Assembly (NCBI GenBank): GCA_019247305.1
Contig: JAFAPC010000094.1
Location: 1-64,000 of the forward strand
Reading direction: 5' to 3'
Length of the DNA: 64,000 nt
From: Pseudonocardiales bacterium
GTDB taxonomy: Bacteria; Actinomycetota; Actinomycetes; Mycobacteriales; Pseudonocardiaceae
The notes beneath the pieces are model-generated. The model was given only the letters and a program-made list of their open reading frames with translations. It was not told the origin of the DNA and did no database searches. How positions within the stretch are numbered: position 1 is the stretch's first letter; each line of letters opens with the position of its first letter. A program made the position numbers and the translations under genes. This document shows, piece after piece, positions 16,793-60,920 of the stretch.

Positions 16793-18389
16793 CCCAATGC
16801 CACGTAGCCTAAGGTGATCATGCTGCTCGGGGGTCGATGGTGCGGATGTTGATCGTGGGTGGGTCGGGGTGGCGGATGGCGGTCTTGTGGGGCTTTTTGA
16901 CGCGGTAGTTGTTGTGCCGGGCTCGCTTGACCGCGCGTGGGCAGGTCCTGTGCCGCCGAGCCGGGTTGATCTTGGCCGTGATGTCGGCCAGGACGTGGGG
17001 GCAAAGCGAGGTCCCAGTCCTTAGGGGGAAAAGCCCGCCGTACCCCTACCGGGCGGTGCGGCGGGCGATGCGCAGGACCCGGGTGAAAGAGACCCGGTCG
17101 GGATCGAGGTCGGCGGCCTCGGCGGCTCGGGTGGTCAGGTCGCTGATCGCGTGGTGGACCAGCAGAGCGGCTCAGATCTCTTGATAGACCAGCTCGGGCA
17201 GCTTCGAGCGCAGCACCCGCCCGGGTCCCCGCAGGTGAGTCTTGAGCTGGTCATTGCCAGTCTCTTCCTCCCACCGCTGGTGATAGGCCGCGGCGAGCTC
17301 ATCGGCGCGGGCTTCGGCCGGGTCGACGATGGTGGTCAACAACGCGATCAGCTCGCCGGTGCCGTTGCCCTCGCGGTCGGGCACGTCGTATTCCACGACC
17401 CGCACCAGATGCGCCTGGTCCGGATCCAGACCCTCGCCCTCGCCGTTGCCCTCGGCGATTCGGCGGGCAGCCTCCAGCATCGCCGCGCGGCGGCGGGCAC
17501 CCCGGATCGCGGGGTTGATCAGCACCGACAGGTAGGTGCCATCATCACCTACCATCACCATCGGCACATCGAGCTGGGTAGGAGCCCGCCACACCAGCGC
17601 CGCCCCCGTGCTCGCGGCCAGGCCCCACGCGTCAAAGGAATAGAAGTTGCGGTCGGCGGTGAGCAGCTCATCACGACCCAGCCGTGGATAAAGCCGGTTG
17701 GCCAGGGTCTTCTCCCCGACCGACGAGGCCCCGACCTCAGCGGCCACGAACGCATGCGTGCCGCACTCAGCTAGGGCCACCACCCGCGCCTTAGGAAACG
17801 CCGAGCGGACATCCCCGGACCCGGCGTAGCCAAACTCCGCGGCATTGCCCTCGGTGTCGGGCACATCGACATCGAACCCGTCGATCGCCAACAACCGCCA
17901 TCTCCGCAGCCACGCCCCCCGCGTCAACGTGGTCGCCACCGGACCAGCGACCTGCTCGAACACCTCCGCCAACACCTTCGGGCCCAACCGCTTACCAGCC
18001 TGAGTAATCCCCGACGACGTCGGCACCGACCACCCAGCGTCCCAGCACCCCCACGCCGACAACGACCCCGTGACCTTGGTCGCGACCTCGGTGTAGTCAT
18101 CCTCGGCGAACAGACACAACCCCATCGTCAGATACGCCGTCACATGCGCCGGCAACTTACCGTCCGAACGCTTAGCGCCAGCCCCACAGGCCGCCACCGC
18201 GACATCCACCGCATCGCGGGGCACCGCTGTGACCAACACCCCCAACGACACCTGATCCAGCCGCACCACCACACCTTCACCCATGATCGGTGACCGTGTC
18301 AGCCACCCCCACGAACATCACGATGCCACGCCGAGCAACAGAAAAACAGCAAGCCAAAACATGATCAAACTAGGCTACGTGGCATTGGG
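16793..18389 (-). mobile_element. IS4-type insertion sequence with terminal inverted repeats and 6-bp target-site duplication
   Basis: Left end cccaatgccacgtagccta..tgatcatg, right end its reverse complement catgatcaaactaggctacgtggcattggg; flanking gtccgg at 16787-16792 and 18390-18395. Confidence 0.85.
16830..18284 (-). pseudogene. IS4-type transposase with premature stops
   Basis: 370-aa ORF (17172-18284) ends LPELVYQEI* with in-frame continuation AALLVHHAISDLTTRAAEAADLDPDRVSFTRVLRIARRTAR*GYGG...LADITAKINPARRHRTCPRAVKRARHNNYRVKKP. Confidence 0.75.
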
Positions 18390-18561
18390 GTCCGGCCGGC
18401 CGTATCACGCTTGCTCGGACGGCCCGATTCGATGACGGCGTGCGCCTGAATTTCTCGGGTGGTGCAGCGCCGGCCGAACGGGGTGAGGGTGCCTGGCTGG
18501 GCGAACCTGCTGATAGGCTGCGCTATGCAGAAGATACATAACCCTTCTTTGGAGTACGGCA

Positions 18562-19824
18562 GTGGCTCTGGACGACGCGAGTGAACGGCGGCGGGAGATC
18601 GGTCGGCGGGTTGCTCGGTGGCGGGTCCGCCGTGGCCTGACGCGGCGGCGGTTCGCTGAGTTGTGCGAGCGGTCGTTAAGCTGGGTAGACAAGGTGGAGA
18701 GCGGTGAGCGGGGCCTGCTCCGGCTGCCGATGCTCGAACGGGTGGCTGAGGTTCTCCACGTCTCGGTCGAGGACCTGGCTGACACCGCCGAGGTCCGCCA
18801 AGCCGGGCACTGTTTAGATGTCTTTGAGATTTCCGCTATTCGGTCTGCCGTGCAGTCTTATCAGGCCATCAGTCGGGTGTTCGTGCCCTCGTCCACTGAG
18901 CTCACGGAGCCTCCGGATCTTGACCGGCTCGCTCAGCAGGTCACCTACACTTTTACCGTTTTTCAGAATGCCCATTGGCCCTTGCTCGGCCAGACGTTGC
19001 CGCGTCTGCTCACCACCGCTCAGACGGCCGTCGCCGCTTACCCCGGCACGGATGATCAGGCGCGACGTGCTCGCTCGCTGCTGTCGCAGGCATACCAGGT
19101 GACCGCCTCCACGCTCATCAAAATCGAAGAATTTGATCTTGCATGGTTGGCTGCTGAGCGGGGTTTTGTGCTTGCTGAGGAGACCGGCGACAGTTTGCTG
19201 ATCAGTTCTGCAGCACGCCGGGTCGCGGCGGTGCTCATGGAGATGAAGCATTACGATGAGGCACTCGAACTCATGCGGGCCAACATTGACCGTCTGGAGC
19301 CAGAACGCGGCGACGGCTCACCGGCGTACCTGTCGGTTTACGGGATGCTGTTCCTCAGAGGAGCGGAGATCGCTTCTCATGCCCGCAAGCCTTCGGTAGC
19401 TCGTGATTTGCTGGATGAAGGCGACAGTGTCGCTCGCCAGCTTGGTTACGATGGGAACGAACACTTTACCGCTTTCGGCCTGACCAATGTTCGCTTGCAT
19501 GAGGTCGGGATTCTGCTCAACCTTGGTGACGGTGCCCGCGCCCTCAACGCCGCCCGTCGAGTCATACCCGATGATCTCAGTCGCTTACCCAAGGAACGGC
19601 GGGCCAGTTACTATCTCGCCGTAGCACGAGGTCACAGCCTCACCGGTCAGTCTGATGACGCCGTCGACGCATTGCTCACGGCCGAGAGCCTGTTTCCGGA
19701 CGAGATACGCTGCCGCCCTTACGCCATCAACATCGTCAATGGTCTCCGGCGTAGTGCTTCGGGTACCCGCTCGCAAGAGTTGGAACAGCTCGCCGCCCGA
19801 GCTGGCCTCACGGATGAGGACTGA
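18562..19824 (+). CDS. XRE-family HTH regulator with TPR-like C terminus (copy 2, paralog of 9608-10855)
   Basis: Near-identical HTH and colinear similarity across full length with 9608-10855. Confidence 0.85.
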   Translation: MALDDASERRREIGRRVARWRVRRGLTRRRFAELCERSLSWVDKVESGERGLLRLPMLERVAEVLHVSVEDLADTAEVRQAGHCLDVFEISAIRSAVQSYQAISRVFVPSSTELTEPPDLDRLAQQVTYTFTVFQNAHWPLLGQTLPRLLTTAQTAVAAYPGTDDQARRARSLLSQAYQVTASTLIKIEEFDLAWLAAERGFVLAEETGDSLLISSAARRVAAVLMEMKHYDEALELMRANIDRLEPERGDGSPAYLSVYGMLFLRGAEIASHARKPSVARDLLDEGDSVARQLGYDGNEHFTAFGLTNVRLHEVGILLNLGDGARALNAARRVIPDDLSRLPKERRASYYLAVARGHSLTGQSDDAVDALLTAESLFPDEIRCRPYAINIVNGLRRSASGTRSQELEQLAARAGLTDED

Positions 19825-32774: not shown

Positions 32775-33604
32775 CCCCCATGGACACTATTGGTCTCGGG
32801 GAGACCATCACGTTCTGGATCCTGGGTCCGCTCGCTCTGGCCGGAGGGCTGGGCATGGTGTTCGCCCGCAACGCGGTGCACTCGGCGCTGTGGCTGGCGC
32901 AGACCATGCTGTGCCTAGGCGCGCTGTACCTGGTGCAACAAGCGCCGTTTCTGGGGTTCGTTCAGATCATCGTCTACACCGGCGCGATCATGATGCTGTT
33001 CTTGTTCGTGCTCATGCTGGTGGGCCGGCAAAGCGCCGACTCGGTGGTGGAGGTGCTGCGCGGACAGCGGGTCGCCGCCGCACTAGGCGGAATCGGCCTG
33101 GCCGTGCTGCTGGTGGGGATGCTGGGCCGGGCCTTCGCCGGGGTTCCTGCGGTGGGGTTGGCCGGAGTCAACAGCGCCGGTGGTGGCAACGTCGCCAATC
33201 TCGGCCGAGTGCTCTACACCGACTATCTGTTCCCCTTCGAGCTCACCTCAGCACTGCTGATCACCGCCGCCCTCGGCGCGATGGTGCTCGCCTTCACCGA
33301 GCGCGGCAAGCAGGGCAGACTCACCCAGCGGGAGCGGGTAGAGGCCCGGCTGCGCAGCGGCCGTCCCTCTCCGCTGCCCGGCCCGGGCGTGTTCGCCACC
33401 ATGAACTCGGTGGCCACTCCGGCTCTGCTGCCCGATGGCTCACCAGCCCCCGAGTCGCGCTCCGCCCTGCTGGAATCCACCGCCCCCGACCGCCTGGAAC
33501 GCGACGTGCGCAGTGTTGCTGGCGCCGGTCTCGATCCTCCTCGACGCGCCCTGCCCGAGCCCGAGCAGGTGCCATCCACCCCAGCGGAGCCGGAGGGCCG
33601 GTGA
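32771..33604 (+). CDS. nuoJ: NADH-quinone oxidoreductase subunit J
   Basis: [47 protein letters not shown]. Confidence 0.9.
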
Positions 33605-33605
33605 G

Positions 33606-33905
33606 GTGACCCCGACGTACTATCTGCTGCTGTCCGCACTGCTGTTCACCATCGGCGCCACCGGTGTGCTGGTACGCCGCAACGCGGTCGTGGTATTCAT
33701 GTGCATCGAGCTGATGCTCAACGCGGTGAACCTGACCCTGATCACCTTTGCCAGGATCAACGGCACGCTGGACGGGCAGATCATGGCGTTCTTCGTGATG
33801 GTCGTGGCCGCCGCCGAGGTTGTCGTGGGCCTGGCCATCATCATGGCAATCTTCAAAACCCGCCGCTCGGCCTCAGTCGACGACGCCAACCTCCTCAAGT
33901 ACTGA
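33606..33905 (+). CDS. nuoK: NADH-quinone oxidoreductase subunit K
   Basis: [32 protein letters not shown]. Confidence 0.95.
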
Positions 33906-34011: not shown

Positions 34012-34326
34012 CTAGGCGACCTCGCTGGCGGCAGCCAGCCGCCGGAGGCGGTCGGCGTCAGCGGCGAGGCGCTCGATTCCCTCCCGCAAGGACATGCCCT
34101 GCTCACTGGCCAATCCCTGCAGCACCCACCCCCGAATCAGCGCACCCACCGGTACCCCCGCCCGCGCTGCAACCTCCTCAATCGCGGCAAACGCCTCGGC
34201 CGGCAGTCGCACCGACTGCACCACGGAACGGCCACGCCGCTCGCCCGTGACGTGCTCCGGCAATGGCTCGTCCCGGGTGGCCTCTGACTCAGCCTGCGCC
34301 CTCTCGACTTCCTGCTTCGCGTCCAT
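34012..34326 (-). CDS. Ribbon-helix-helix-like antitoxin candidate
   Basis: SVRLPAEAFAAIEEVAARAGVPVGALIRGWVLQGL; start ATG overlaps stop of upstream ORF (ATGA). Confidence 0.6.
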   Translation of the reverse strand: MDAKQEVERAQAESEATRDEPLPEHVTGERRGRSVVQSVRLPAEAFAAIEEVAARAGVPVGALIRGWVLQGLASEQGMSLREGIERLAADADRLRRLAAASEVA

Positions 34327-34607
34327 CACTGCGCCTCCCGATAACGCCGCTGATCCGCCGGATTGGACTCCCAACCATTCGCCCCGTAGTGGGTCTCCTC
34401 ACCCTGGTGGACCAAGATGACGGTGAGAATCGCCCGCCGGCTGTGGCTATAACCGATCACCCGAACACTGCGGTTTGACCGGCTAGCCGGGTCTGGGTCA
34501 AACCAGACAGCATCAATGTCATTGACAGCCTCATCAGCCTCCGCGGTGGCCACCTTGTGGTTGTCCCACATGTGCTGCGCGCCGTAGGTCCAGTCAGCAC
34601 CCGACAC
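34326..34607 (-). CDS. BrnT-like toxin candidate
   Basis: MWDNHKVATAEADEAVNDIDAVWFDPDPASRSNRSVRVIGYSHSRRAILTVILVHQ. Confidence 0.5.
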   Translation of the reverse strand: MSGADWTYGAQHMWDNHKVATAEADEAVNDIDAVWFDPDPASRSNRSVRVIGYSHSRRAILTVILVHQGEETHYGANGWESNPADQRRYREAQ

Positions 34608-35090: not shown

Positions 35091-36290
35091 ATGTTGTCCG
35101 AAGCCTTGGAGCCGGTGAACCCCTTCCACGAAGGGGCGGCCGGCAAGTATTTCGTCGGCCGGGATGATCAGCTCAAGCGCTTCACCCGCGCCCTCACCGC
35201 TCTCCGCAAGGCTGAGCCCGCCCATCTCTACGTCGCTGGCGTCAACGGCCGCGGCAAGACCTCGTGCCTCGAGAAGCTCGTCGAGATGGCCCGGGAGAGC
35301 GACATCTTGGCGGTCAGGGTTGCACTAGACGGCGGTGTGCGCGCGCAGCAGCAGATCCTGGCCATGTTCGAGAAGCTGCTCCGCAAGGTCGACGAGATCC
35401 ATAAGGAAATGGCCGGTGCGCCCCGTCTCATCGCCGAGTGGAAGCAGTCGAGCGGCTCGCCGTTCCATCTGCCCGGTTCCGGGCGGCTGCAGAACGACCA
35501 TTTGTTGCAGGACCTTACCCATGTCAGAGACGTCATCGCCGAGCTGGGTTTCCGGCATCTCGTCCTGTGCATTGACGAGGGCGAGCGGATCGAGCCGTAC
35601 GCACTATCGGCGCTGAAGAACGCGCTGCTGGAGCTCAAGGAGTACCTTGTCGTGCTCTCGGTCCGGCTAGCCGAGGACCACGGGGATCCGGTACGGGCAG
35701 GCAAGCTGAAGCTGGAGGAGATCGCCGCGGCCGCCGATCGGGATCTGGGGGCAGCTCGCCTCTTCGTCGGCGGGGTCGGGCTGGGCTCATTCACAGCCGA
35801 GCAGGCGCGGTACTGCATCACACGCCGCCTGGAGGACAACGCCATCCGTTTCGATGACGCGGTGATCGACCTCATCGTCCGCGTGGCGGAGGGACTTCCC
35901 GACCGGATCATCTCCTATGCCCACCAGGTGTATGACCGGACTGAGGCCGCCGAGACCGACATCGCGACCGTGGAGATCTTCCGTCAAACCTTTGTCGCCC
36001 TGCACAAGCTCGAACTCGACGAGGCCAATGCGCTGTCCGCACAGTCGACGAGCTCCGATCGCCGGACACTGCGTGAGCTGGCCCGGCACGATGTACCGCT
36101 TACCCCACTGGACCTGGCGAGGAAGCTTTATGCCGACGCCTCGGCGGACGTGCTGGAGCCGGTGGCAGATGCGCTCAGGGGTGTGCTGGATAGGGTCGGC
36201 GACACTTTCTGTGTGAGTACCGATGGGCGCTACCTGGTCCCCGACCCCGTCCGCCGATATGCCCTAGAGATCTCGATGGAGCCGGAATGA
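35091..36290 (+). CDS. AAA/Orc-like P-loop ATPase (gene A of three-gene operon)
   Basis: KYFVGRDDQLKRFTRALTALRKAEPAHLYVAGVNGRGKTSCLEKL; LGFRHLVLCIDEGERIEPYALSALKNALLEL. Confidence 0.75.
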   Translation: MLSEALEPVNPFHEGAAGKYFVGRDDQLKRFTRALTALRKAEPAHLYVAGVNGRGKTSCLEKLVEMARESDILAVRVALDGGVRAQQQILAMFEKLLRKVDEIHKEMAGAPRLIAEWKQSSGSPFHLPGSGRLQNDHLLQDLTHVRDVIAELGFRHLVLCIDEGERIEPYALSALKNALLELKEYLVVLSVRLAEDHGDPVRAGKLKLEEIAAAADRDLGAARLFVGGVGLGSFTAEQARYCITRRLEDNAIRFDDAVIDLIVRVAEGLPDRIISYAHQVYDRTEAAETDIATVEIFRQTFVALHKLELDEANALSAQSTSSDRRTLRELARHDVPLTPLDLARKLYADASADVLEPVADALRGVLDRVGDTFCVSTDGRYLVPDPVRRYALEISMEPE

Positions 36291-37900
36291 GCACCGGGCA
36301 GTGGCTCGACCTGCTCAGCGCAACTGAGGAGCACCTCATCCCCGCGGACCTGCGCGCGGCCGCCGAGTTCTTGCTGTATGCCCGGAACCCGGGCGAAGGG
36401 TGGGGTGACTACCCCAAGGTCCCCACCGATCTGCAGGTGACCGCTCAGGTGATCGGCGCGCTGCAGGTCCTGCGGCACCCGAAGACGAGGGAGCTGGCCA
36501 CCAGCGTCGCCGCATGGGCGCACAAGCACTACCTCGAGCGGATGCCGGCCACCGCCCAGGACGCTATCGGGTTGCTGATCCTCGCCTCGGCGGACCAGGA
36601 CATCGACGGCCGTTATCCGGAGGAACTGCGGTCGACCCTGCGCGCGGCTCTGAAGCATCTGGACAGTGATCGGGTGTCGACCCTAACTCTGGCCCAGGCA
36701 GTGCTGGCCACCGAGCCTTGGCCGGACGAGCACAAGAAACGGGTTCAGCCTTGGGTAGACGAGCTGGTACGCCGCGGCCAGGGAGCAGACGCCTGGCACA
36801 AGGCGAGACTGCCCGAGGAGTCGTTGCCGGTGACCTCGCTGGCCGTCCGCGCGCTCGCACCATGGAAGCACCTCAACGCGGTCGAGGCGGTGGTCCAGCG
36901 TGGCCTTGAGTATTTGCATTCCCACCTGCACGAGAGCGGCTGGGAGTCCCGGGCGCTGTCGGGCACCTACGCACTCACGCTGGTGCTGCGTGCGCTTGCC
37001 ACTGACGCCGACTGTGAGCCGGAGCTGTTCGAGAAGGGCCTCGATTTGCTCCGTTCGCGGCAGCGTTCGGACGGAGGTTGGACCGGGGGCGAGCTGGAAC
37101 ACGGGAGCAGTAGCGTCGAGCACACCGCGGCGGCCATCACGGCGCTCACCGAGTCCGGCGCCTGCCGCTACGTGCCGCTCCTCGCGACGCGCTCCATCGT
37201 CCGTCAGCTGACTACCTCGCTCGACGAGGTCACCAAACGCCAAGCTGCTCTCCAGGAGAACATCGATAGCCAGGTGGAGGAACGCCTGGGCCGCGCCATC
37301 ACCGAACGCCAGCAACTCAGACGACGCCTTCAGGAACGTGAGTCCGAGCTCAGGCAACTCTACCGACTCCTCGATGAGAAGGAGCCTTTGTCCGAGGCGA
37401 AGAGCTCGTTGGTTTCGAGCCGTGCAGTCACGGCACGCCGGCTCCTTATCCTTATCCTTAGCACTGGCGGCTTGGCTCTAGTAATTCTATCCTATCGCCA
37501 CAATGCCACCTTCGCTTCCTTGGTTCTTAGTGTCACCGCCGCCCTCGGCGCCCTCATAATTTCTGTCTCAACATTAACCTTTGGACGTAGCCCCACCCGA
37601 GAGAGCACGCTGGAGAGTCTAAGTGCAAAGCGCTCCCGGCAGCTTGTCGACCACTTCATGGACGCCACCGAGGATCTGCCTGCGGTGGTACGGGAAGAGA
37701 TAGTTTATCGGCTCGCGCGGGATAGCTCCGATCTACCTCCCGACCTATTCCTACGATTCCTCACCGAGCTGACCAGCAAACAGTTGCACATCGATCGCGA
37801 AGCCGATCGGCGACTGCGCTCCTGGATGGAGGAGTTCGCGAGGGTGGAACCGCAGGACCGCCGTGCACTCATAGCCCGACTGCGCAGGGCCATCCTGTGA
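36287..37900 (+). CDS. Terpenoid-cyclase/prenyltransferase-type alpha-toroid repeat protein with coiled coil and two TM helices (gene B)
   Basis: RNPGEGWGDYPKVPTDLQVTAQVIGALQVL; RQRSDGGWTGGELEHGSSSVEHTAAAITALTE; coiled coil KRQAALQENIDSQVEERLGRAITERQQLRRRLQERESELRQLYRLL; TM LLILILSTGGLALVIL and SLVLSVTAALGALIISVSTL. ATGA overlap with 36290. Confidence 0.65.
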   Translation: MSTGQWLDLLSATEEHLIPADLRAAAEFLLYARNPGEGWGDYPKVPTDLQVTAQVIGALQVLRHPKTRELATSVAAWAHKHYLERMPATAQDAIGLLILASADQDIDGRYPEELRSTLRAALKHLDSDRVSTLTLAQAVLATEPWPDEHKKRVQPWVDELVRRGQGADAWHKARLPEESLPVTSLAVRALAPWKHLNAVEAVVQRGLEYLHSHLHESGWESRALSGTYALTLVLRALATDADCEPELFEKGLDLLRSRQRSDGGWTGGELEHGSSSVEHTAAAITALTESGACRYVPLLATRSIVRQLTTSLDEVTKRQAALQENIDSQVEERLGRAITERQQLRRRLQERESELRQLYRLLDEKEPLSEAKSSLVSSRAVTARRLLILILSTGGLALVILSYRHNATFASLVLSVTAALGALIISVSTLTFGRSPTRESTLESLSAKRSRQLVDHFMDATEDLPAVVREEIVYRLARDSSDLPPDLFLRFLTELTSKQLHIDREADRRLRSWMEEFARVEPQDRRALIARLRRAIL

Positions 37901-38670
37901 GGCGAGCCCTGTGGACGCTCGCGGTCACACTGTTGGGAGTCCTCGCCATCATCCCCGCGCCCGCCGCCGCGGATCCGCATTCGTCCGGGCTGATCCAGGT
38001 GGACGCGTTCGTCCGGGGCGAGGGCAGCACCGCGCAGGTGGTCGCCACCGTGCGTAACCTGACCAATGCGGCGATCGACACGCTCCGGGTGGAGCTGTGG
38101 GGAGGCGGCAAGTTCCTCGCGGCCACCGATCGCACCGCACTGCCCGCCAAGCAGTCGACCGTGATCACCCTGTCCACCGACAAACCCGACGAATCCTACC
38201 TGATCGTCACTGCTCGCTCGGACAAGATCTCCGACCAAGTGGCCATGACGCCCCTCGGTAGGCCGAAGGCGGACTTAGTCCCGGACCCGCTGCTCGTCGC
38301 CGTAACGACCTCGTTGCTGAGCCTTCTGGGAGTCGGCCTCGGCTCGATACTCACCCACGTGACCACCTACAGACGCGAGAAACACCGGATGCGCTTCGAG
38401 GCGCGCAAGAGCGACACCGAACGGTACGCCCCCGCATACCGCGAATTCCTCGACTATTGGAGGTCGAGTATCAGCCTCTCCCAATTGGAGAGTGGCTTCG
38501 GGCAGATGCGCAGCAAGGCCTTCGTGCCCGAGAACATACTCACCCTGTACAACGAGACCGTGACCACACTGCGCGATACTGCGGCCACCGCGGATACCAA
38601 GAAGGCAGCCGCGCAGCGACTCTACGCCGCCATCGACGAACTCACCGGTACCAAAGCCAATGCCGGGTAG
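37897..38670 (+). CDS. Secreted beta-domain with TM and cytoplasmic tail, signal peptide (gene C)
   Basis: MRRALWTLAVTLLGVLAIIPAPAAA signal; VDAFVRGEGSTAQVVATVRNLTNAAIDTLRVELWGGGKFLA beta-rich; TM LLVAVTTSLLSLLGVGLGSILT; GTGA overlap with 37900. Confidence 0.65.
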   Translation: MRRALWTLAVTLLGVLAIIPAPAAADPHSSGLIQVDAFVRGEGSTAQVVATVRNLTNAAIDTLRVELWGGGKFLAATDRTALPAKQSTVITLSTDKPDESYLIVTARSDKISDQVAMTPLGRPKADLVPDPLLVAVTTSLLSLLGVGLGSILTHVTTYRREKHRMRFEARKSDTERYAPAYREFLDYWRSSISLSQLESGFGQMRSKAFVPENILTLYNETVTTLRDTAATADTKKAAAQRLYAAIDELTGTKANAG

Positions 38671-38955: not shown

Positions 38956-39153
38956 GTGACGAGCACGTCTGAGCAGCCTGAGTTCCGATCAGTGGACGAC
39001 TTTGTCCCCACCGATGAGCTAGTCCGTCGTCAGGGTGTGCAGCCGATTACTTCGGTGAACGCGCTCGTGCTCGATGACCCCTTCGAGTCCGACGACGAGT
39101 ACACGGAGTTCCTCACCGACCTGTACGCGTCCCGGCGCTCTGCCATACCGTGA
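38956..39153 (+). CDS. VapB-like antitoxin candidate
   Basis: 65-aa ORF overlapping PIN-domain ORF by 4 nt. Confidence 0.6.
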   Translation: MTSTSEQPEFRSVDDFVPTDELVRRQGVQPITSVNALVLDDPFESDDEYTEFLTDLYASRRSAIP

Positions 39154-39545
39154 GCGTCGTCCTCGACGCCGACGTCGCCTCGTCGCTTCTGCGTCGGCGC
39201 ATCCCGGACACCATGGCTCGCCAGCTTGCTGGCAACGTCCCCGCCGTCACGTTCGTGACCGTGGGAGAGCTGACCAAATGGACGCTCGCACGACAATGGG
39301 GACCCCGGAATCTGGCCACCATGCGTACGTTTCTCGCGGGACTCGTCGTGCTAACCTACGATCAACGCGTGGCCTCACGCTGGGGCGAGTTTCAAGCGTA
39401 CGCCCAGCTTCGCGGCAGGCCAAGACCCGTCAACGACGCGTGGATCGCCGCGTGCTGTCTGGTGCGGGAGCTGCTACTCGCAACCTTCAACACGAAGGAC
39501 TTCCTCGACTTCGCCCAGTACGACGGGCTCGTGCTGCTGTCGTAG
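39150..39545 (+). CDS. PIN-domain toxin (VapC-like)
   Basis: MSVVLDADVASSLLRRR ... TVGELTKWTLARQWG ... RPRPVNDAWIAACCLVRELLLATFNTKDFLDF. Confidence 0.85.
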   Translation: MSVVLDADVASSLLRRRIPDTMARQLAGNVPAVTFVTVGELTKWTLARQWGPRNLATMRTFLAGLVVLTYDQRVASRWGEFQAYAQLRGRPRPVNDAWIAACCLVRELLLATFNTKDFLDFAQYDGLVLLS

Positions 39546-40109
39546 ATCGAGACCCGTTGTTGACCCCGACGGCGATGTGGAGGCACGCGCGGCGCGTCGT
39601 GCATACGGTAATACGGTATGATCTCGCTCCGCTCACCTTCATGGCCAATGAGCTGTTGACGCTGGCTCCTCCTGATGCTGGTGGAGCGCCGGGGGTTCAC
39701 AGCGGAGTCAACCTCGCTCGGGGATGCCGAAGCGGCGGCGCAGGCTGCCCAGTTCCCACACTGGGCGGCGGGCTCGCTGGTCCAGAGTGCTCAGCCGATC
39801 CCGGGCGATGGGATCGTTGCGGATCCCGGTCGGCGCGAGGCGGTCGGCGGTTTCCGGGCGGCGATCTTCTCGGCTTCATCCAGGTGTACTCGCGTGTTAC
39901 CGCGCGAGACCCCGGATCGGTGACCCGCGTGGGGAGGTTCCTTGGCTAGTGTGAACGGTCGTCGACCGGAGGCCAGAAGCGAGCGAAGCTGATCGTGACA
40001 CCACCGTCGACGCCTCGTTCGCTGGCGGCGGGCGGATGGCGCGGCTACGTCGATGGCACCTCGGCGCCACGGAACTGTCGGTCTGAGGAGCTACCGTCGC
40101 GCTGTGCCC

Positions 40110-40307
40110 ATGAAGGTCAGCGAGATTGTCCGCTTCCGGGAGCAGGATGGCTGGATACTCAAGCGGGTCAGTGGCTCGCATCGCCATTTCACCCATCCCG
40201 CCAAACCAGGTCTCGTGACTGTTGCCGGCAAGCCGAGCGCGACGTTGAAGCCAAAGACCGAAGCGAGCATCCTGAGACAGGCAGGTCTGAGAAGGGAGCG
40301 GCCTTGA
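40110..40307 (+). CDS. hicA: HicA-like mRNA interferase
   Basis: MKVSEIVRFREQDGWILKRVSGSHRHFTHPAKPGLVTVAGKPSATLKPKTEASILRQAGL. Confidence 0.85.
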   Translation: MKVSEIVRFREQDGWILKRVSGSHRHFTHPAKPGLVTVAGKPSATLKPKTEASILRQAGLRRERP

Positions 40308-40531
40308 GAGGATACGTGGTCGTGTTCGAGGGAGACGACGAGGTGGGGTACTCCGCGTACTCGCCAGATCTGCCGGGTGTCGTGGTGGCGGCTGACACGC
40401 GTGCTGAGACCGAGCAGCTCATGCGGCAAGCAATGGCTGAGCACCTCAGCATGCTTCGTGAGACCGGGCAACCAGTACCGGAGCCTGCCGACGCCGCCGA
40501 CGTCACCATCCTCGATCCGGCGGCTGCCTAG
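40304..40531 (+). CDS. hicB: HicB-like antitoxin
   Basis: RGYVVVFEGDDEVGYSAYSPDLPGVVVAADTRAETEQLMRQAMAEHL; TTG start overlaps hicA stop (TTGA). Confidence 0.8.
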   Translation: MRGYVVVFEGDDEVGYSAYSPDLPGVVVAADTRAETEQLMRQAMAEHLSMLRETGQPVPEPADAADVTILDPAAA

Positions 40532-40636: not shown

Positions 40637-43600
40637 CTACGGGGCGGGCTGGCCTTGGTGGACGAGTTCGGCAACGACCAGATCGGGCTCGGTGTAGCAG
40701 CGCCATGCCGGTATTCGATGTACGGTCACTGTGTCGGGCGCTACGTCGATCGACGCCAGAACCTTGCGGAGTCCTCGCCCATCGGCGTCACCGTTGGGGT
40801 CATCCACCACGAGCGCCACCGTGCCCGCTGGACTGGCCGTCATGATGTCGTACCGGCGGCTCGCCATCATGACGTCGCGATTGACGGGCAGGCCACTGTG
40901 GCGCAACGCATCGTGGAGCCAGTCTGCCGCCGAAAGGGACGCGGTTGTGCTGGTCTGTCCGTTGGTGGATCCGTTGGTGGCTCCGCGCGTCAGCTCCGTC
41001 AGCAGGCCTTGCTGGCTCGCCCACCACTCATGGTCACCCACCACGACGAGCTGTGACCGGGCCCGGGTGATGGCAACATTCCAGAGATTGGTCTGGTGGA
41101 CCAGCCAGTTCCGGGTGCGGTCCCGCACGCCGTGCGCGCCGACCGGAGAGATCACCATGATGTCCCGCTCGCCGCCTTGGAAGCGGTGGATGGTCCCGCA
41201 CCCGACCTCGGATTCCGGAAATCCGGCCTTCTTGAGAGCTGCGGCGAGCTGGCGCTGGTGGGTGGCCAGCGGCGTCACCACCCCGATCGATGCACTCGGG
41301 TAGGCCGCTCGCAGGCGCTGCACTTCCGCGACCACCGCATCGAGCTCTGGTTCGTTGGCGCCGGAGCCGCTGGCATTATGCCGGAATGCGCCCTCGACGT
41401 GCTGCCATCGCACCGCCGGCTCGGCCGGTGCGGTGAGCCGGGCCGGGTCGGTCAGGACGGTGAGGCGCCCCTGGTACACGTGTCGGTTCGGCGCAGCGAC
41501 GATGTCGGGGTGACACCGGTAGTGTTCGTCGAGCAGGTGGGTTCGGCCGGCGACGGCGGCGAATGCGTCGTAGCCGGAGTACCGGGTGTAGGCTAACCGT
41601 CGCGACTCGAGCCACTCGCGGTTCAGTCCCGCCTCGGCTTGGTGCCTCAGCTCCTCCTTCGCTGGCAAGGTAATCACCGGGGCAAGTTGTCGGGGGTCCC
41701 CGATGATCAGGGCTCGCTTGGCGCGGTAGAGCATCGGCAGGATGGCCGGGATGCTGCACTGTGCCGCCTCGTCGATGACGACGAGGTCGAACAGCGCCGG
41801 TTGCGGTGGCAGCACGCGCGCGGACATCGTCGTGGTCGCCCAGGCGGGCAGCGGATGGAGCAGCTCCCTGAACCGCGACCACGGTTTCGGCTTCTCCTTC
41901 GACATCTCGTCGCTGCGGAACCGCAGTACGTCGGCGCCATCACGGATCCGGCGGGCAAGCTGGGCCCGCAAGAGCCTTCGGCTGTGCTCCGGGCGCTCCA
42001 CGGTGACCAGTTCAACCAGTCGTGACCAGGTGGTGGTGTCGCCCGGTAGTTCGGCGAGCCGGCGCCGGCCGGTACGCCAGCGCAGCTCGACGGTGACTCG
42101 GTGGGCGAACGCCTCCATCGCCGCGCGGTCAGTCAGACGGAACGCGCGCAGCCGCCAGCGCCACCACCAGCCGAACACGCCACCACGCGCCGCCCGGTCC
42201 GCCCAGTCCACGAGAGTAACGAGCTTCGTCTCGTCTGTCGGCACGGTGAGTTCATCACGGTCACCGGCCTGCTGCTCGGTGGCGAGTTCGGCAAGATCCC
42301 GCTCCAGGAGACGTCGCTCGTCGAGCTCGGTGCGCAGCGCCGCGATCTCCTGGTGGATGAGGCGCAGCTCTGCCTCAGTGGTCCGCTCGTTGCCGGACCG
42401 GCCGTTGGCGTGAGCGGTGAGCAGCTCGGCGAGCAGCGTCGGCTCCTGGCCTTGATACTCTCGATTGCCGGTCCGCATCACAAAGCCGGGGCTGACCATC
42501 TCGGTGCTGCGCTTGATCACCTCATTCACGGCCGGGTTGTTGGTGGAGCCGACCAGGACGCTGTGTCCCGCTGCGGTGGCGGTGGCGACCAGAGCAGTGA
42601 CGAGCTGACTTTTCCCGGTGCCGGGTGGCCCTTGCGCGACGGTGAGCCGATGGGACATCGCGGCCTGGATGATCTGCTCCTGAGTCTCGTTGAGCCGGTC
42701 CGGCGCCACGATGGTCACCGGCGCGGCAGGCGCCTGATCGGCCGCAGTCTCTCCGGTCAGCGTGCCGAGAGCGGTCGTGGCGATCTTCGCGGGATCGACC
42801 GCGATCGAGTCGCGCAGGTCCTCGATCAACCGCCGCTGTGCCGTGTCCTTGGGGTCGACGCGATAGAGCACTGCGGTGTTCTGCACCCGGTTGAGGGGCC
42901 CGGCGCTCACTGTCCCCGTGAGGGTGGCCGGATTAAGGGGAACTGCGGCCGCGACGCCGAGCACCTCCATCAAGCGCCGGACCGTCTCCCCGAGCGCAGC
43001 GACCTCGCCCGGGACGAAGGTTTCTTCGACCCGCTGGACCAGGTCGTCAATCTCCACGTCGCTCAGCTGGAGATGCCGGGCGAGCGCCCGGTTGGGTTGG
43101 GGCGGCAGCGTGGCGAGCAGCCCGCCATCCGAGGTGAGCGTCACGTCGCAAACGAGCAGCGGCGCGAACCGGGGCCCTGAGTTCCTCCGCTCGCCGGGCA
43201 GGACGAGCACCGGGTACCCGTACCGCAGCTGGTGACCGTCAGCCGCACATCGCTGACCGAAGGCGGCGACTTCCGGGGCTCCACCCCGGTCCATCGCCGT
43301 GCGGACAAACACCCGCTCTGGACCCTCCGGCATCGGCTGATACGTCTGCCGCGCGTTGATGTCGATGAAGGATCCCAACACCGCCTCTCGCTCCATACCG
43401 GAGACGTAGTAGCGCAGCAGCCGCCGCCATTGGTCCGCATCGAACTCTTGGTCGGCGTCGGTGCCTGGGCGCCGCAGCGTGGTGTGAGGCCCGGTCTCGC
43501 ATGCCGGCTCGACCGTCACCAGCTTGATGGGCTCGGTGACCCCTTCGCTCGATTCGACTGGCCGCCGGTGCGGATCGCGAGCTAGCTGTCCGTGCGCGTA

Positions 43601-44236
43601 CCGCGCCAGGTCATTCGTGGTGATCCACACTTCGCCGTTCGGGGTCGCTGCCGCACCCCGCAGTCCGGTGAGCATCATCTCGGTGAAGACCGAGGGGCGA
43701 TCGTCCCCCTGGGTCTTAGCTGCTCTCGCGTGCGTACTGGAGGTGAGGATGAACGTGCCATGCTGGCGCACCCCCCGGCGCGGCTCCTGCCGGAGGCCAC
43801 CGCGGAACCGGTTGCGCGCCCCAAATGCACCAGAAAAGCAGCAGTCCAGCAACACCACCTTCTGGCTGGCGCGGGTGATGTTCAGCAGGTGCCGCAGCAC
43901 GCCGTCGGTGTCCAGCGCGGTGGTGTGCAGGTGCTCGCACCGGGTGTCGGTCGCGGCGAGAAACACCGATTCACGGTCCAGCTCGCTCATCAACCCGTGC
44001 CCCGAGTAGTACACCAGAGCGAGATCACCCACTCGGCGAGCGCCGAAGAAGTCTTCGAGAACCGCGGTCAGCCGCTCCCGGTCGAGATCGGCATGCGCAT
44101 CAACGCTGTCGAAAGCGCCGACGGCATCGAGCAGCGCTTTGAGCTGGTCGACATCCTGACGTACCCCAGGCAGCGCCGCCAGTGTCCGGTCAGCGTGGAA
44201 CGTGGCGGTGCCCAGCAGCAGGGCATGGCGGCCCAT
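40637..44236 (-). CDS. Caspase-like peptidase / superfamily 1 (Dna2/Upf1-type) helicase / C-terminal nuclease-like fusion
   Basis: Caspase VYYSGHG and VVLLDCCFSGAFG; helicase TVAQGPPGTGKSQLVTAL, LFDLVVIDEAAQCSIPAILPML, IHRFQGGERDIMVIS, NVAITRARSQLVVVGD; C terminus LHDALRHSGLPVNRDVMMASRRYDIMTAS resembles Vsr/PD-(D/E)XK fold. Confidence 0.8.
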   Translation of the reverse strand: MGRHALLLGTATFHADRTLAALPGVRQDVDQLKALLDAVGAFDSVDAHADLDRERLTAVLEDFFGARRVGDLALVYYSGHGLMSELDRESVFLAATDTRCEHLHTTALDTDGVLRHLLNITRASQKVVLLDCCFSGAFGARNRFRGGLRQEPRRGVRQHGTFILTSSTHARAAKTQGDDRPSVFTEMMLTGLRGAAATPNGEVWITTNDLARYAHGQLARDPHRRPVESSEGVTEPIKLVTVEPACETGPHTTLRRPGTDADQEFDADQWRRLLRYYVSGMEREAVLGSFIDINARQTYQPMPEGPERVFVRTAMDRGGAPEVAAFGQRCAADGHQLRYGYPVLVLPGERRNSGPRFAPLLVCDVTLTSDGGLLATLPPQPNRALARHLQLSDVEIDDLVQRVEETFVPGEVAALGETVRRLMEVLGVAAAVPLNPATLTGTVSAGPLNRVQNTAVLYRVDPKDTAQRRLIEDLRDSIAVDPAKIATTALGTLTGETAADQAPAAPVTIVAPDRLNETQEQIIQAAMSHRLTVAQGPPGTGKSQLVTALVATATAAGHSVLVGSTNNPAVNEVIKRSTEMVSPGFVMRTGNREYQGQEPTLLAELLTAHANGRSGNERTTEAELRLIHQEIAALRTELDERRLLERDLAELATEQQAGDRDELTVPTDETKLVTLVDWADRAARGGVFGWWWRWRLRAFRLTDRAAMEAFAHRVTVELRWRTGRRRLAELPGDTTTWSRLVELVTVERPEHSRRLLRAQLARRIRDGADVLRFRSDEMSKEKPKPWSRFRELLHPLPAWATTTMSARVLPPQPALFDLVVIDEAAQCSIPAILPMLYRAKRALIIGDPRQLAPVITLPAKEELRHQAEAGLNREWLESRRLAYTRYSGYDAFAAVAGRTHLLDEHYRCHPDIVAAPNRHVYQGRLTVLTDPARLTAPAEPAVRWQHVEGAFRHNASGSGANEPELDAVVAEVQRLRAAYPSASIGVVTPLATHQRQLAAALKKAGFPESEVGCGTIHRFQGGERDIMVISPVGAHGVRDRTRNWLVHQTNLWNVAITRARSQLVVVGDHEWWASQQGLLTELTRGATNGSTNGQTSTTASLSAADWLHDALRHSGLPVNRDVMMASRRYDIMTASPAGTVALVVDDPNGDADGRGLRKVLASIDVAPDTVTVHRIPAWRCYTEPDLVVAELVHQGQPAP

Positions 44237-44601
44237 CAGGACCGCTCCCGTTCGATGACGCTCTGCATGACCTCGATGATCGTCTCCGCCTCACCTCGGG
44301 TGGGACGGTCGATGGTGAGCTCGATGTCACCGACCTTGAGGTGTACCCGGCGCCCAGCATTGCGGTTGGTGAACGCCACGGCACCGTCGATGAGCACGCG
44401 CAGATCTGCGATTAATACGCTGAGCGTGGCGAGGGCGACGTCGGTCACACCCTTGTCACCCGGCGTGGCGGGCACAGGCACATAGTCCACCTCGCCTGCC
44501 GCACGGAGCTCGTCGGCGAGCTCCGTCCTCAGCCGCTCCAGGACGAAGTCGTCATCCTCAGCGGTGGTCGTGAACCCCACCAGCACCCGTATCTGCGCCA
44601 A
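44236..44601 (-). CDS. EACC1-like effector-associated constant component
   Basis: VLIADLRVLIDGAVAFTNRNAGRRVHLKVGDIELTIDRPTRGEAETIIEVMQSVIE; TGATG coupling to the caspase-helicase ORF. Confidence 0.65.
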   Translation of the reverse strand: MAQIRVLVGFTTTAEDDDFVLERLRTELADELRAAGEVDYVPVPATPGDKGVTDVALATLSVLIADLRVLIDGAVAFTNRNAGRRVHLKVGDIELTIDRPTRGEAETIIEVMQSVIERERS

Positions 44602-51823: not shown

Positions 51824-53218
51824 CTACGTGCCGCGCGGCGCGAGCGCCATGATGTCCTCGGCGGTGATCGCCAGCACATCAGGGGGGACGTTGTCGACGC
51901 GCTCGCGGGCGCACAACACCAGCCGCACTGTTGCCGGGTCAGCTTCAGGCACCGCGCTGACCTTCGCGGTGAGCGCGCGGATTATCCGGGTAGCGTCCAT
52001 CCGGGCGGCCCACTTCGCCTCGCCGACGAGGACGGGGACCCGGGCTCGCCCGGCCAGAGCCACCGCATCGATCTCCACTGTGCCGTCCGCGGACCACCAG
52101 GGACCGACCGCGACAATGCCGTCACCGAACTTGCCCTGCGCAGCCAGAACACGCAGGTGCGTCCGGAACATCTCCTCCCAGCGGGGGCCGAGGAGCTCAG
52201 GCAAGCTCTCGAGGAGCACCGGCAGGATGGCCTCTCCGAGCCCACGCTCGATCTCCGCGCGGAATCGGGCGAGCACTTGCAGCCAAAACGCGAGGAAGTT
52301 GTCTGCCACCCGGTAGTGGACACGTCGAGATCGTTCGGTATCAGTAACGGGGACCACCCGTTCCACCAACCGCAGCGCGATGAGCCGCTCCAGCGTGCGG
52401 GTCGGCTCGGCGCGCAGCGCATCCTTGATCTCACCATGTTTGGTCCGTCCCGCCGCGATCGCATGCAGCACCGCCGAGGGATATTCGCCCCGTTCGGTCT
52501 CGGTCGCCAGCACTAGCTGCCCCTCGGTGAGCAGCGGCGCACCGGGGCGGCAGGCGAGTCGCAGCAGGTTGCTCGCCAGGTCGGCGTCCTGGTCCCACCA
52601 CGACAAGTACAGGGGCATCCCCCCGAGCAGCCCGTAGACGGTGGCCCGGTCCGTGGCGGACAGTCGGGGAAGCAGCAGCGCCGCCTCGGCCGGCTGGAAC
52701 GGATGCACCTGGAGGGACAGCCCAAAACGGCCGTAGAGCGGGGCCCGTTGCTCCTGGAGGGCCTCCATGTGCCGGACCGCCGACCCGCACAACAGCAGAC
52801 GCAGCCGGGTGCGCCCAGCGGCCCGATCCAGGAAGGCACGGAGCACCCCGGGTAACTCCGGTGAGGTCAGCGTCAGCTCCGGGAACTCGTCCAGCACCAC
52901 AAGCAGGGTCTCGTCAGCGGCCAGCTGGGCGAGTCCGTCGAACGCATCATCCCAGTCGGCGTAGGGACGGGCGAGCAGGTCCCGAAGCTGGTGCGGGGCC
53001 ACCCGGTGCACTTGCCGGGACAGTTGCGCCAGCTCGCCGCCAGCTGGCCGGCCCGCCCCCGTGTGGAACACCGTGCGGCGATCGGCGGCGAAGTGCTGCA
53101 CCAGGGCGGTCTTGCCGACCCTGCGCCGCCCCCAGACCACGGCGGCTGGCGAGTCGCTGCGCCACCAGCGCTCCAGCGCCGAGAGCTCCTCATGCCGGTT
53201 GACGAACATGACCCCCAT
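51824..53218 (-). CDS. Archaeal-type AAA ATPase with DUF234-like C-terminal nuclease-fold domain
   Basis: FVNRHEELSALERWW..VVWGRRRVGKTALVQHF ... LLVVLDEFPEL ... EIDAVALAGRARVPVLVGEAKWAAR. Confidence 0.8.
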   Translation of the reverse strand: MGVMFVNRHEELSALERWWRSDSPAAVVWGRRRVGKTALVQHFAADRRTVFHTGAGRPAGGELAQLSRQVHRVAPHQLRDLLARPYADWDDAFDGLAQLAADETLLVVLDEFPELTLTSPELPGVLRAFLDRAAGRTRLRLLLCGSAVRHMEALQEQRAPLYGRFGLSLQVHPFQPAEAALLLPRLSATDRATVYGLLGGMPLYLSWWDQDADLASNLLRLACRPGAPLLTEGQLVLATETERGEYPSAVLHAIAAGRTKHGEIKDALRAEPTRTLERLIALRLVERVVPVTDTERSRRVHYRVADNFLAFWLQVLARFRAEIERGLGEAILPVLLESLPELLGPRWEEMFRTHLRVLAAQGKFGDGIVAVGPWWSADGTVEIDAVALAGRARVPVLVGEAKWAARMDATRIIRALTAKVSAVPEADPATVRLVLCARERVDNVPPDVLAITAEDIMALAPRGT

Positions 53219-53359: not shown

Positions 53360-54084
53360 ATGACTACAGCGAGGGAGCAGCATGGGGGCATGGCTACCGG
53401 GGTGGACGGGTTCGGCCTCGCGGGGGAGTTCACTGTCGAGGATCTTGAGCGGATGCCTGAGGACGGGCGCCGCTACGAGTTGCTGGACGGGATACTCCTG
53501 GTGAGCCCGGTGCCGGGCTATGGCATCAGGAGGCTGCGGGGACGCTGTACCGGCTGCTCTACCACGCATGCCCGCCGGAGTTGCACGTGGTGATCGCGCC
53601 GTTCGAGTGGCGGCGTGGGCGCAGGACCGCATTGCAGCCGGACGTGCTGGTGGCCCGTCGGGACGATCTGTTGGCCGTTGGCAGCAGTGGGTTTCTGGGG
53701 CAACCTCCGGTGCTGGCCGTGGAGGTGCTCTCGCCGAGTAGCCAGCGGATTGATCGGCTGTCGAAGCTGTCGGTCTACGAGGAAGCCGGTGTCGCCTCGT
53801 ACTGGCTCGTTGACCCAGACCCGCAAGCGCCCTCGTTGCACGCACTGGATCTGGTGGACGGCAGTTATGTCGGCGTCGGGTGTCCCTCCGGGGAGCGGGC
53901 CTGGGAAGCGCAGCGCCCGTTCCCCGTCACCATCCGCCCCGCAGACCTCGTCGCCGGCCTGCGTCGAACCGTGACCGTGCATGGTCCATCGCTGGACCTC
54001 GGCAGGCCATTCTTGGCGCCTTCACCGAGGATGCCGGAGGGCTGGATCGGCCTCGGATGCGCAGGCGCTGACCCGCACGGCTAA
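53360..54084 (+). pseudogene. Uma2 copy 2, frameshifted
   Basis: MTTAREQHGGMATGVDGFGLAGEFTVEDLERMPEDGRRYELLDGILLVSPVPG then 1-nt deletion relative to copy 1 (ccgggctatgg vs ccgggagtatgg); rest LHVVIAPFEWRRGRRTALQPDVLVARRDDLL... in another frame. Confidence 0.85.
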
Positions 54085-54098
54085 TCCTCGGTCGGGCG

Positions 54099-57000
54099 TT
54101 ATCCAAGGCGGTAGACCCTCCGCAGCGTCTCAGTACACACGTCGTCGAGTTCAGGCATGTCCGGAATAGCCGCGTCGACGAAGGCGAAGTGGACCGTGCG
54201 CCGAGATGTGGGGTCTTGGACTGCCTGGGCCAGAGCGGTGATGATCGTTTGCCGGACCCGTTTCGGGGTGACGGTGTTCTCGCCGATCTCGCCCAGCAAC
54301 TGAGCGGCGGCCCAGGCAGTGGTGACGCTCGGCCCGACCAGCGCACTCACCAGGTCGTCGATGAGGCTGCTATCGACGCTGCGCAGCCGGGTGATGGCTT
54401 CAAGGGCCGCTTGCCGGACGGTTGGCGCGGTGTCGCGCAGCATCTGCCGCAGAGCTTGCAGCACGATCGGTGAGCCGTGTCTCAGCACTCCGAGAAGATC
54501 GGCCGCAGCTGCCCGGCCAGGGAAGCTGTTGTGGTGCAGCCCCGCCTGGGCCAGCAGGCGGCTGAGGGTCTCCTTGTCCAGGTGGTTTATAGTGTCGTCC
54601 GCTTTGTCTGCGTGCTGGCGGAAGGTGTCGGGGTTCGTCTGGGCCGCAGCGGCGAGTGCCTCCAGGACACAGCTGCATTCCGTGGAGCCGCAGTCGTCCT
54701 GCGGCGCTCGGGCCAGCAAATCACGGGCCCACATCGTGAGCAGGCCGGTCCACGGCCAGTTGGACTGTCTTGGTCGCCGACGGTAGGTCTGGAAGACTGA
54801 GATAGCTAGTGCGGTATGGTTGAACTCGGCTATGTAGGATGCACCGAGCCGGTGCAGGGCGCTGCGCAGCTGGGCCTCATCGCTCATTGCCAGAATCGCG
54901 CCGAGGGTCGTCCCCACCTCATCCCACAGCGCCCGGGAGGCCCGCAGGCCGCTATCTCGATCCAGGGTGCCGTCGGTCGCGGCGAGCGCGTCGCCCGCTG
55001 CGGCGAACACGTCCGCTATTTGCACTGGCAGGACCCGCACGGCGCGTAGTGGCTCCGGATCGATGGCGCGCAGCGTTGAGTGCAGCGTTGCCCAGCGCTT
55101 CCAGCCGATCTGTAACTTCCCTGCGGACGTCGTGAAGTCGCCGTCACTGTCGGTGGACTGGTACAGCATGTGGGCGCAGGCGATCAGGATCAGGCGTTGC
55201 AGCGGCGGGCTAGCGTGCCGCAGCCGGTCCAGCATGAGCGTCCAGACTGGTGTCGTCGCCCAGTGAATGCCGCTGATGATCCAGGATGCGACTGGGCCCG
55301 ACTCGTCGTCCTGTTCCACCGCGTCGCACCAGGCGGACAGCGCCTCCGGATCATCGTGCAGGAGCCTTTGGCAGTGCCAGGTGAACACCAGCGCCGCGCC
55401 TGGGGCGGACCAGTTTTGATCGTGGGCGAACTGGGCAAGCTGGGCGACTGCTGTCGCTCCCATGCCGGTCACCGAGACGCACACGCCGCCTGGTCCGCCG
55501 GGGAGGACACAGTTTCGGGCCCTGGCTCTGAGCAGGTCGTCCTCGGCGAGCAGCAGTTCGGTGATCGGGGTGGCGGTCTCGGCACTGAGGCCGGCGCGCT
55601 CGGCCAGCAGCAGCGCCGCGATCTGCCGGACCGCTGCCGCGGGGTGGGCAAGCCAGCAGCGCACGGTCGGCTCGGCGTCGTAGTCCATGCGTACCAGCCG
55701 GCTGAGCAGCGGGCTCAGGCACTTCGACCCGGCCAAGGCCAAGGCCGCGGCGATGCTCCGCGCCACGGGCCCGGTGCACTGGATGACCGGCTCGGTCTGC
55801 ACCTCGAGAACCCGCCGGACCGTGCCGGGTGAGGGCTCGGCGGCCAGAGCCCGCCAGACCTCGGCGACTTGGTCCTGCTGGCTGGCCCGCACCAGGTTAG
55901 TGGCGCGAGCGTAGAGCGCGACGGGGACGAACGCCTGCACCAGGGTCTCATTGCCGCCGCAAAGGGTCGGCAGATGTGCAGCGATCGCGGTGCCCCAGCG
56001 GCCCAGGACATGCGCGGACTCCTGGTCGGACGTGGCGATCCCGGCCAGCAGCCCCTCGATCGCGGCCTGGCAGGCCGGTCGGTCGGGGAACATCTCGCGG
56101 CTGAGCCGGAGCAGTTCGAGCTGCTCGGCGCGGGAGCCGATCAGCCGGATTCGGTCAAGCGCGGCGATGGCCAGGTCGTCGAGCGCCTCAGCGGGCACGA
56201 AGCGGGTCAGCCTGAGCAGGGCCCGAGCCCCGGCGGCAGGGTCTGCGATCGAGCTTGCCAGGTTCCGGCAGGCGGACACGTGCCGCGTGCGGTCCTGCGC
56301 CGGACCGAGCAGCGCGAGCCGCTCGCGCAGCTGGAACGCTTGCACCGAGTCGGAAACCTCGCCGATGCACTGTTTCGCCTCCCGGAGCGCTGCGCGACGG
56401 CCGGCCGGAAAGAGTTCCGCGATGCGCAGCAAGGCCCGGCCGCGGTGCCACGGGTCTTCCACGGCGCAGGCCACCTCGTACAGGTGGTCGACGCGCTGCG
56501 GCACCTCAGCCAGGTGATCATCGAGGTAAGTGATGTACGCCAGGAGCGCATCCTTGTCCTGGCCCCAGAAACGCGCCCAAAGGATGACGGACACTTCGAC
56601 TGCGACGTCCGGATTTTCCGCGAACAAGAGCTGGAATAGGTGCCCGACTTGCCAGCCCAAGATGGCGCCCATCTCCGTCGGCAGGTTTACCAGCTGGTCT
56701 AGGACAGCCAGCGGGATATCAGCCTCGCCACGGTAGGGAAACGCCAGCGGGTCGGATGGCCACCAGTGGGCGTACCGGCGGTAGCCGTTGTTCCAGGCAG
56801 AACCCTGGGCGTTGAGCGCGGCGAGCATCATCGGGCCCGGATACTGGGTCGCGGCGTCAGCGAAGTTCTTCGCGTCGTAACCGGGATCCTCCGCCCAGCC
56901 GCCGATGCGCTGGGCTATCTCCTCGGTCAGCACCCGGGCTCGATGGCGTTCGGGCATGTCGTCAAGTTCTGCGAACAGGCTGATCGGGCGAGCGCCGACC

Positions 57001-60910: not shown

Positions 60911-60920
60911 TGACCAGCTG

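Follow-up and report, generated by a model that had tools for sequence, protein, structure and literature searches.

A three-gene operon of a Pseudonocardiales bacterium that may encode a membrane-tethered, ATPase-switched conflict module

The window analyzed here is a 64,000-nucleotide stretch of DNA from a Pseudonocardiales bacterium (GenBank assembly GCA_019247305.1, contig JAFAPC010000094.1, positions 1 to 64,000 of the forward strand). It carries three overlapping genes, here called A, B, and C, that encode in turn an ATPase, a membrane protein with an alpha-toroid domain, and a second membrane protein with a domain outside the membrane. The reading we favor, and hold tentatively, is that the trio forms a membrane-tethered STAND-ATPase conflict module, abortive-infection-like in kind, in which A acts as the switch, B as the transducer or two-transmembrane effector, and C as the envelope-facing partner. 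ATPase-switched multigene systems are known as a kind; what is new is the layout, which is unnamed in the libraries used.

How closely do the three genes belong together? Genes A (35091-36290), B (36287-37900), and C (37897-38670) are codirectional on the plus strand, with the stop of A and the start of B sharing the sequence ATGA at 36287-36290 and the stop of B and the start of C sharing GTGA at 37897-37900. An earlier note on this DNA had reported these overlaps, which proved exact when the coordinates were rechecked, and had read from them a fixed stoichiometry. That was an overstatement, because a great many bacterial operons have 4-nucleotide overlaps, which are evidence of coupling only. 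Judged from the sequence, the overlaps argue for a single transcript and coupled translation of all three genes. Each frame has a coding-like composition, with GC fractions of about 0.61-0.69, 0.47-0.50, and 0.75-0.84 at the three codon positions (for A, measured over the whole open frame from 34557). The overall GC content of the trio is 64-65%, versus 69% in the adjoining nuo genes. A search for promoter or terminator consensus sequences around the trio found none.

The proposed switch is gene A, which has the following features:

35091-36290, plus strand: gene A, a 399-amino-acid Orc/STAND-type AAA+ ATPase (Pfam AAA_16 and BrxC_BrxD; relatives)
35238-35261, plus strand: Walker A motif of A, GVNGRGKT, amino acids 50-57 (G50, G53, G55, K56, and T57 invariant in the alignment)
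35562-35585, plus strand: Walker B region of A, LCIDEGER, with the catalytic pair D162-E163 (both invariant in the alignment)
35892-35900, plus strand: GxP motif of A, GLP, amino acids 268-270 (G268 and P270 invariant in the alignment)
36063-36287, plus strand: C-terminal region of A, a probable winged helix (position after the ATPase; alignment with Orc-like relatives)

A matches Pfam AAA_16 above the cutoff (E=2.3e-10) and BrxC_BrxD at 4.6e-6 (26.2 bits versus a cutoff of 22.2), with a weak match to Orc1/Cdc6. None of the BREX partners (PglX, PglZ, and others) was found among the neighboring proteins scanned, and A is not assigned to BREX. The invariance of its motifs was judged in an alignment with three relatives from other actinobacteria, in which R223 is also invariant; the GxP motif is typical of STAND NTPases. 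By sequence, A has the motifs that a STAND/Orc-type AAA+ ATPase needs to be active, the activity itself being predicted. The frame of A stays open upstream as far as 34557, but the relatives, which start a few residues ahead of the same NPF/NPY motif, support 35091 as the start. Scanned alone, the C-terminal region matched nothing in Pfam; it is probably a winged helix, judging from its position only.

Where might such an ATPase have come from? Searches based on A returned only stand-alone or unrelated ATPases, the stand-alone ones about 24% identical, and a profile-pattern genome scan gave at least seven distant ATPases among the matches listed. A profile built from A and its relatives found a stand-alone ATPase of about 400 amino acids in 114 of 150 genomes of the family. 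The genome studied here is one of them, and its own stand-alone copy (G000:C16:3423-4619; L171) is 23.6% identical to A. At the five stand-alone loci that were read (L171 and L172-L175), there was no B- or C-like neighbor and no shared neighbor. A is best seen, from these comparisons, as a diverged relative of the conserved ATPase that we infer was recruited into the operon.

Gene B encodes the most unusual protein of the three, with the following parts:

36287-37900, plus strand: gene B, a 537-amino-acid protein with a toroid, a coiled coil, two transmembrane helices, and a tail (Pfam, hydropathy, model)
36329-37171, plus strand: alpha-toroid domain of B (PF13243 on the isolated region; motif scan)
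37172-37384, plus strand: coiled coil of B, approximately amino acids 296-366 (helix in the model; weak matches to coiled-coil families)
37439-37579, plus strand: transmembrane hairpin of B, amino acids 385-403 and 409-431 (hydropathy)
37580-37897, plus strand: cytosolic helical tail of B, amino acids 432-537 (helices in the model)

The N-terminal 295 amino acids alone scored 28.4 bits against the squalene-hopene-cyclase C domain (PF13243; cutoff, 26.1), and the whole protein scored 26.0 bits. Is B then a terpene cyclase? That this is its best Pfam domain is the starting point for a reading in which the trio serves terpenoid biosynthesis, with B as the cyclase and A and C as accessories. It is already disfavored, and we regard it as very improbable. 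The class II cyclase motif DXDD was looked for in the B sequence and is absent, and the toroid has a single canonical QW motif (QRSDGGW), both of which make a class II cyclase unlikely. The toroid is also only about 280 amino acids long versus the 631-amino-acid squalene-hopene cyclase chains that it matched, and no terpene genes were seen among the neighbors scanned. B was rejected as a terpene cyclase on the missing motif and the length and, because the acid motif is absent, its toroid is taken to be a binding scaffold and not an enzyme. The SCO2321 family (NCBIfam NF053823) was rejected as well: B scores 37.4 bits versus a cutoff of 300, and the family names toroid proteins, not an A-B-C system.

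What could a toroid scaffold bind? Terpene cyclases and intrinsic factor, which have related folds, bind small hydrophobic or corrinoid ligands. Given the matches of B to cyclase and SCO2321-family toroids, its toroid might do the same, and the module would then report on an isoprenoid lipid carrier or a lipid-directed antibiotic. We consider this improbable, since the lone QW motif, the missing DXDD, and the low SCO2321 score all count against it, and the model of B is too poor to reveal a cavity. That model is helical throughout and of low confidence, with a mean predicted local distance difference test (pLDDT) score of 46.9, and a fold search that used it returned nothing at E <= 0.001. Its best-modelled internal stretch is an unbroken helix over residues 296-363, where the coiled coil lies, while pLDDT runs from 53 to 72 across the last 80 residues of the tail; the tail matched no family when scanned against family models.

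Hydropathy peaks at residues 385-403 (1.96) and 409-427 (2.28) mark the two helices of the hairpin. The topology of B is predicted to be N-in/C-in; the toroid and tail should both be cytosolic because B lacks a signal peptide and positive charges flank the hairpin on both outer sides. With its two-transmembrane hairpin set between a coiled coil and a helical tail, B resembles SLATT-type effectors. SLATT models gave no match to B, either with the whole protein (E <= 1) or with the segment (E <= 10).

Gene C would supply the part of the module that faces outward:

37897-38670, plus strand: gene C, a 257-amino-acid type I membrane protein (hydropathy, model)
37897-37971, plus strand: signal peptide of C, amino acids 1-25, ending PAPAAA/D (hydropathy of 2.02 at amino acids 7-25)
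37993-38253, plus strand: extracytoplasmic immunoglobulin (Ig)/CARDB-like beta-sandwich of C, amino acids 33-119 (model, Foldseek)
38293-38349, plus strand: transmembrane helix of C, amino acids 133-151 (hydropathy of 1.93)
38350-38667, plus strand: cytosolic helical tail of C (model)

Modelled alone, C has a seven-strand sandwich at residues 33-119 with pLDDT mostly at 80-90, for which Foldseek returned the CARDB domain of PF1109 (3idu), along with further Ig-like sandwiches, at E values of about 2e-4 to 1e-3; against Pfam CARDB, the sequence scores 13.6 bits, below the cutoff. A long helix (131-189) includes the transmembrane segment and is followed by helices at 194-207, 212-226, and 232-250. 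The cytosolic part begins with the strongly positive stretch YRREKHRMR, and the charges fit the predicted type I topology of C, which has its binding-type domain outside. The earlier note had described A as an Orc/NACHT-like ATPase; B as a toroid, coiled coil, and two transmembrane helices with a C-terminal tail; and C as a signal peptide, beta domain, transmembrane helix, and tail. All three descriptions hold, the first through AAA_16 and the invariant Walker motifs, the second through PF13243, hydropathy, and the low-confidence model, and the third through the agreement of hydropathy and model.

An Ig-like domain outside, one transmembrane helix, and a helical tail inside make up a typical sensor layout, and it is here that the chief rival explanation enters. 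The trio could be a non-defense envelope sensor or homeostasis complex in which C senses the wall or surface, B relays the signal, and A is a switch for remodelling or signalling. That the relatives of A form a conserved stand-alone family of chromosomal ATPases also suits this explanation. If the complex were homeostatic, congeners should carry it, yet B was absent from the ten sampled, and the neighbors of the trio are conflict genes; we judge this explanation unlikely, while giving it real weight.

How might a conflict module of this kind work? We infer complex formation, a cue, an output, and a role in defense, and the scheme is conditional at each step. (i) A would oligomerize on ATP when either A or the toroid of B meets the cue. 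(ii) Oligomerization, acting via the coiled coil, would push or cluster the transmembrane hairpin of B. (iii) The tail and outside domain of C would anchor the assembly at the envelope and gate it. (iv) The output would be membrane perturbation or another signal that arrests the host.

Does the trio occur elsewhere? No ortholog of B was found in 396 phylum, 299 order, and 297 family genomes (samples that overlap in part), in plasmids, phages, and IMG/VR, or in a genome-contig scan that used exact 8-residue patterns only. C gave weak matches only in 247 class genomes, no match outside its own genome in 112 family genomes, and none in plasmids; it was absent from the four congeners listed as searched. 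The candidates that were read were set aside: nine B-like matches (L036, L037, L039, L064-L067, L070, and L074) are full-length terpene-cyclase-type proteins, another (L040) is a toroid protein of a different layout that adjoins transporter genes, and one (L038) is a chance match in another reading frame. The mycobacterial matches to C look like DnaN, which a PDB search also returned, and the other C-match loci that were read have no matching layout among the matches listed. At the depth reached, A-B-C is an orphan, a status that is not absolute, since a single-sequence search may miss fast-evolving relatives. The earlier note had named a lack of conserved gene order outside this genome as something that would refute its reading, and in the searches made, the A-B-C order did not turn up in any other genome, so that the word "system" is unsupported if it means a unit that recurs. 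The statement of the note that the combination was unrecognised still holds: among the Pfam, NCBIfam, PADLOC, and PHROGs models, none places A, B, C, or the three together in a system, and the literature searched contained no description of the combination.

The lack of relatives in these searches also suits a different explanation, namely, that the genes have no joint function and were cotranscribed by chance in a lineage-specific, fast-decaying neighborhood next to a genome rearrangement. The trio does lie directly beside a broken nuoK/nuoL junction. In five congeners, nuoL-M-N directly follows nuoK; here, the operon is split between contigs C204 and C150 of G000, nuoK (33435-33905) being followed by other genes and nuoL lying on C150, where no second nuoK end accompanies it, which excludes a clean insertion and makes the left flank either a rearrangement or an assembly break. 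The assembly is fragmented (206 contigs, 87.7% complete, 6.9% estimated contamination) and may be misjoined at nuoK, a junction of which the trio and its right-hand neighbors are independent. Three open frames of coding-like composition joined by start-stop overlaps at both junctions, the intact ATPase motifs of A, and the matching membrane layouts of B and C all speak against the absence of a joint function, which we think rather improbable. In one congener (locus L115 of G1074; 10186-10279 and 18337-18822), about 8 kb separates nuoK from nuoL, and at its boundary the nuoK 3' end is present a second time as a 94-bp copy with 90% identity to the nuoK of the window; the duplicated end is a possible integration site.

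To the right of the trio, conflict genes are frequent. A small open reading frame that begins 0.3 kb downstream of C overlaps a PIN/VapC-like gene (38956-39545, plus strand), and a HicA gene (40053-40307) is next downstream, accompanied by a possible HicB (both, 40053-40531, plus strand). Three toxin-antitoxin-like pairs stand around the trio: a weak BrnT/RHH pair (34012-34607, minus strand), the PIN/VapC-like pair, and HicA with its possible HicB. A 1199-amino-acid caspase fused to an SF1 helicase, the latter MkoC-like (40637-44236, minus strand), lies 2 kb from the trio and scores 139.6 bits against NCBIfam caspase_w_EACC1 (cutoff, 140). Its start overlaps a 121-amino-acid gene (whole pair, 40637-44601, minus strand) that has a marginal Trypco2 match (0.081) and no match to an EACC1 model; this gene may be an EACC1-like partner. 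Farther along are an ATPase_2/DUF234 protein (51824-53218, minus strand; PADLOC PDC-S27 match, 3e-31), which a Uma2-family gene (53581-54084) adjoins, and a 2165-amino-acid trypsin-NACHT-HEAT protein (54099-60596, minus strand), the start of which overlaps a Trypco2 gene (60593-60985, minus strand; Pfam, 1.8e-21). The latter two (54099-60985, minus strand) make up a Kaur-type conflict pair. EACC1-caspase and Trypco proteins have been described as components of nucleoside triphosphate-dependent actinobacterial conflict systems (eLife 2020;9:e52696).

The HicA, PIN/VapC-like, and caspase-helicase genes are within 7 kb of the trio, and the Trypco2/trypsin-NACHT-HEAT pair is within 24 kb. Because chromosomal genes (an AhpC-type peroxiredoxin and a treZ-type amylase) stand between the conflict genes, the neighborhood is mixed and not a pure island. 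Outside the window, contig C204 encodes a 2142-amino-acid protein (95958-102386; L062) with an N terminus that is DUF4062-like by eye (RVYVSSTYQDLK), possibly another conflict NTPase.

How do these observations bear on the membrane-tethered conflict module? It is favored by the intact Walker A, Walker B, and GxP motifs of A, the topologies of B and C, the fold of C, the above-cutoff toroid of B, the conflict-gene neighbors, the patchy presence (B absent in ten congeners and C in four), and the GC content, lower than that of nuo. Several points weigh against it. The searches made found no second copy of the trio and so no phylogenetic pattern that would speak for joint function or for an association with defense. 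The nearest relatives of A are a stand-alone ATPase family present in most genomes of the family, suggesting a housekeeping origin. No effector is recognised in B, which neither SLATT nor other two-transmembrane effector models matched, and the neighboring genes, which lie on both strands, form units of their own. The defense-type role suggested as a possibility in the earlier note fits the neighbors and is a prediction.

A bolder version, which we regard as doubtful, is that A-B-C is the founding example of a new kind of bacterial immune or cell death complex. Its STAND ATPase would drive a two-transmembrane protein, capped by the toroid and partnered by an Ig-like subunit at the surface, and would in this way connect a switch inside the membrane with a sensor outside it. 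Should the trio work as proposed for the conflict module, it would add to STAND-ATPase conflict systems a membrane-spanning layout in which an Ig-like domain outside and an ATPase inside are joined by a noncatalytic terpene-cyclase-type toroid. It would also offer a concrete three-gene construct to examine in actinobacterial immunity, a field with many orphan operons.

Which known systems come closest? The stand-alone actinobacterial AAA/Orc-like ATPase (MDPVRNPFAPGAGQRPPELAGRD...) resembles A in fold, length, and motifs and aligns with it over the full length, but it is a single gene of 23.6% identity. BrxC/D, archaeal ATPase_2, and nSTAND defense ATPases share with A the AAA_16 and BrxC_BrxD matches and a like order of motifs, whereas A is short and has no fused sensor repeats or effector. 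Squalene-hopene cyclases and SCO2321-type proteins have alpha-toroid repeats and a QW motif, as B does; B differs in lacking DXDD, in its half-length toroid, and in its fusion to a coiled coil and transmembrane hairpin. SLATT-type two-transmembrane effectors have no counterpart to the N-terminal toroid of B. Finally, System 4 is a membrane-associated two-gene EACC1-caspase conflict system (eLife 2020;9:e52696). The trio shares its multigene, membrane-linked conflict logic, and the caspase-helicase 2 kb away is of the System 4 type. System 4 is defined by an EACC1 gene with a caspase-domain gene after it, neither of which is among A, B, and C; in place of a caspase and an EACC1-like gene, the trio has an ATPase of its own and two membrane proteins.

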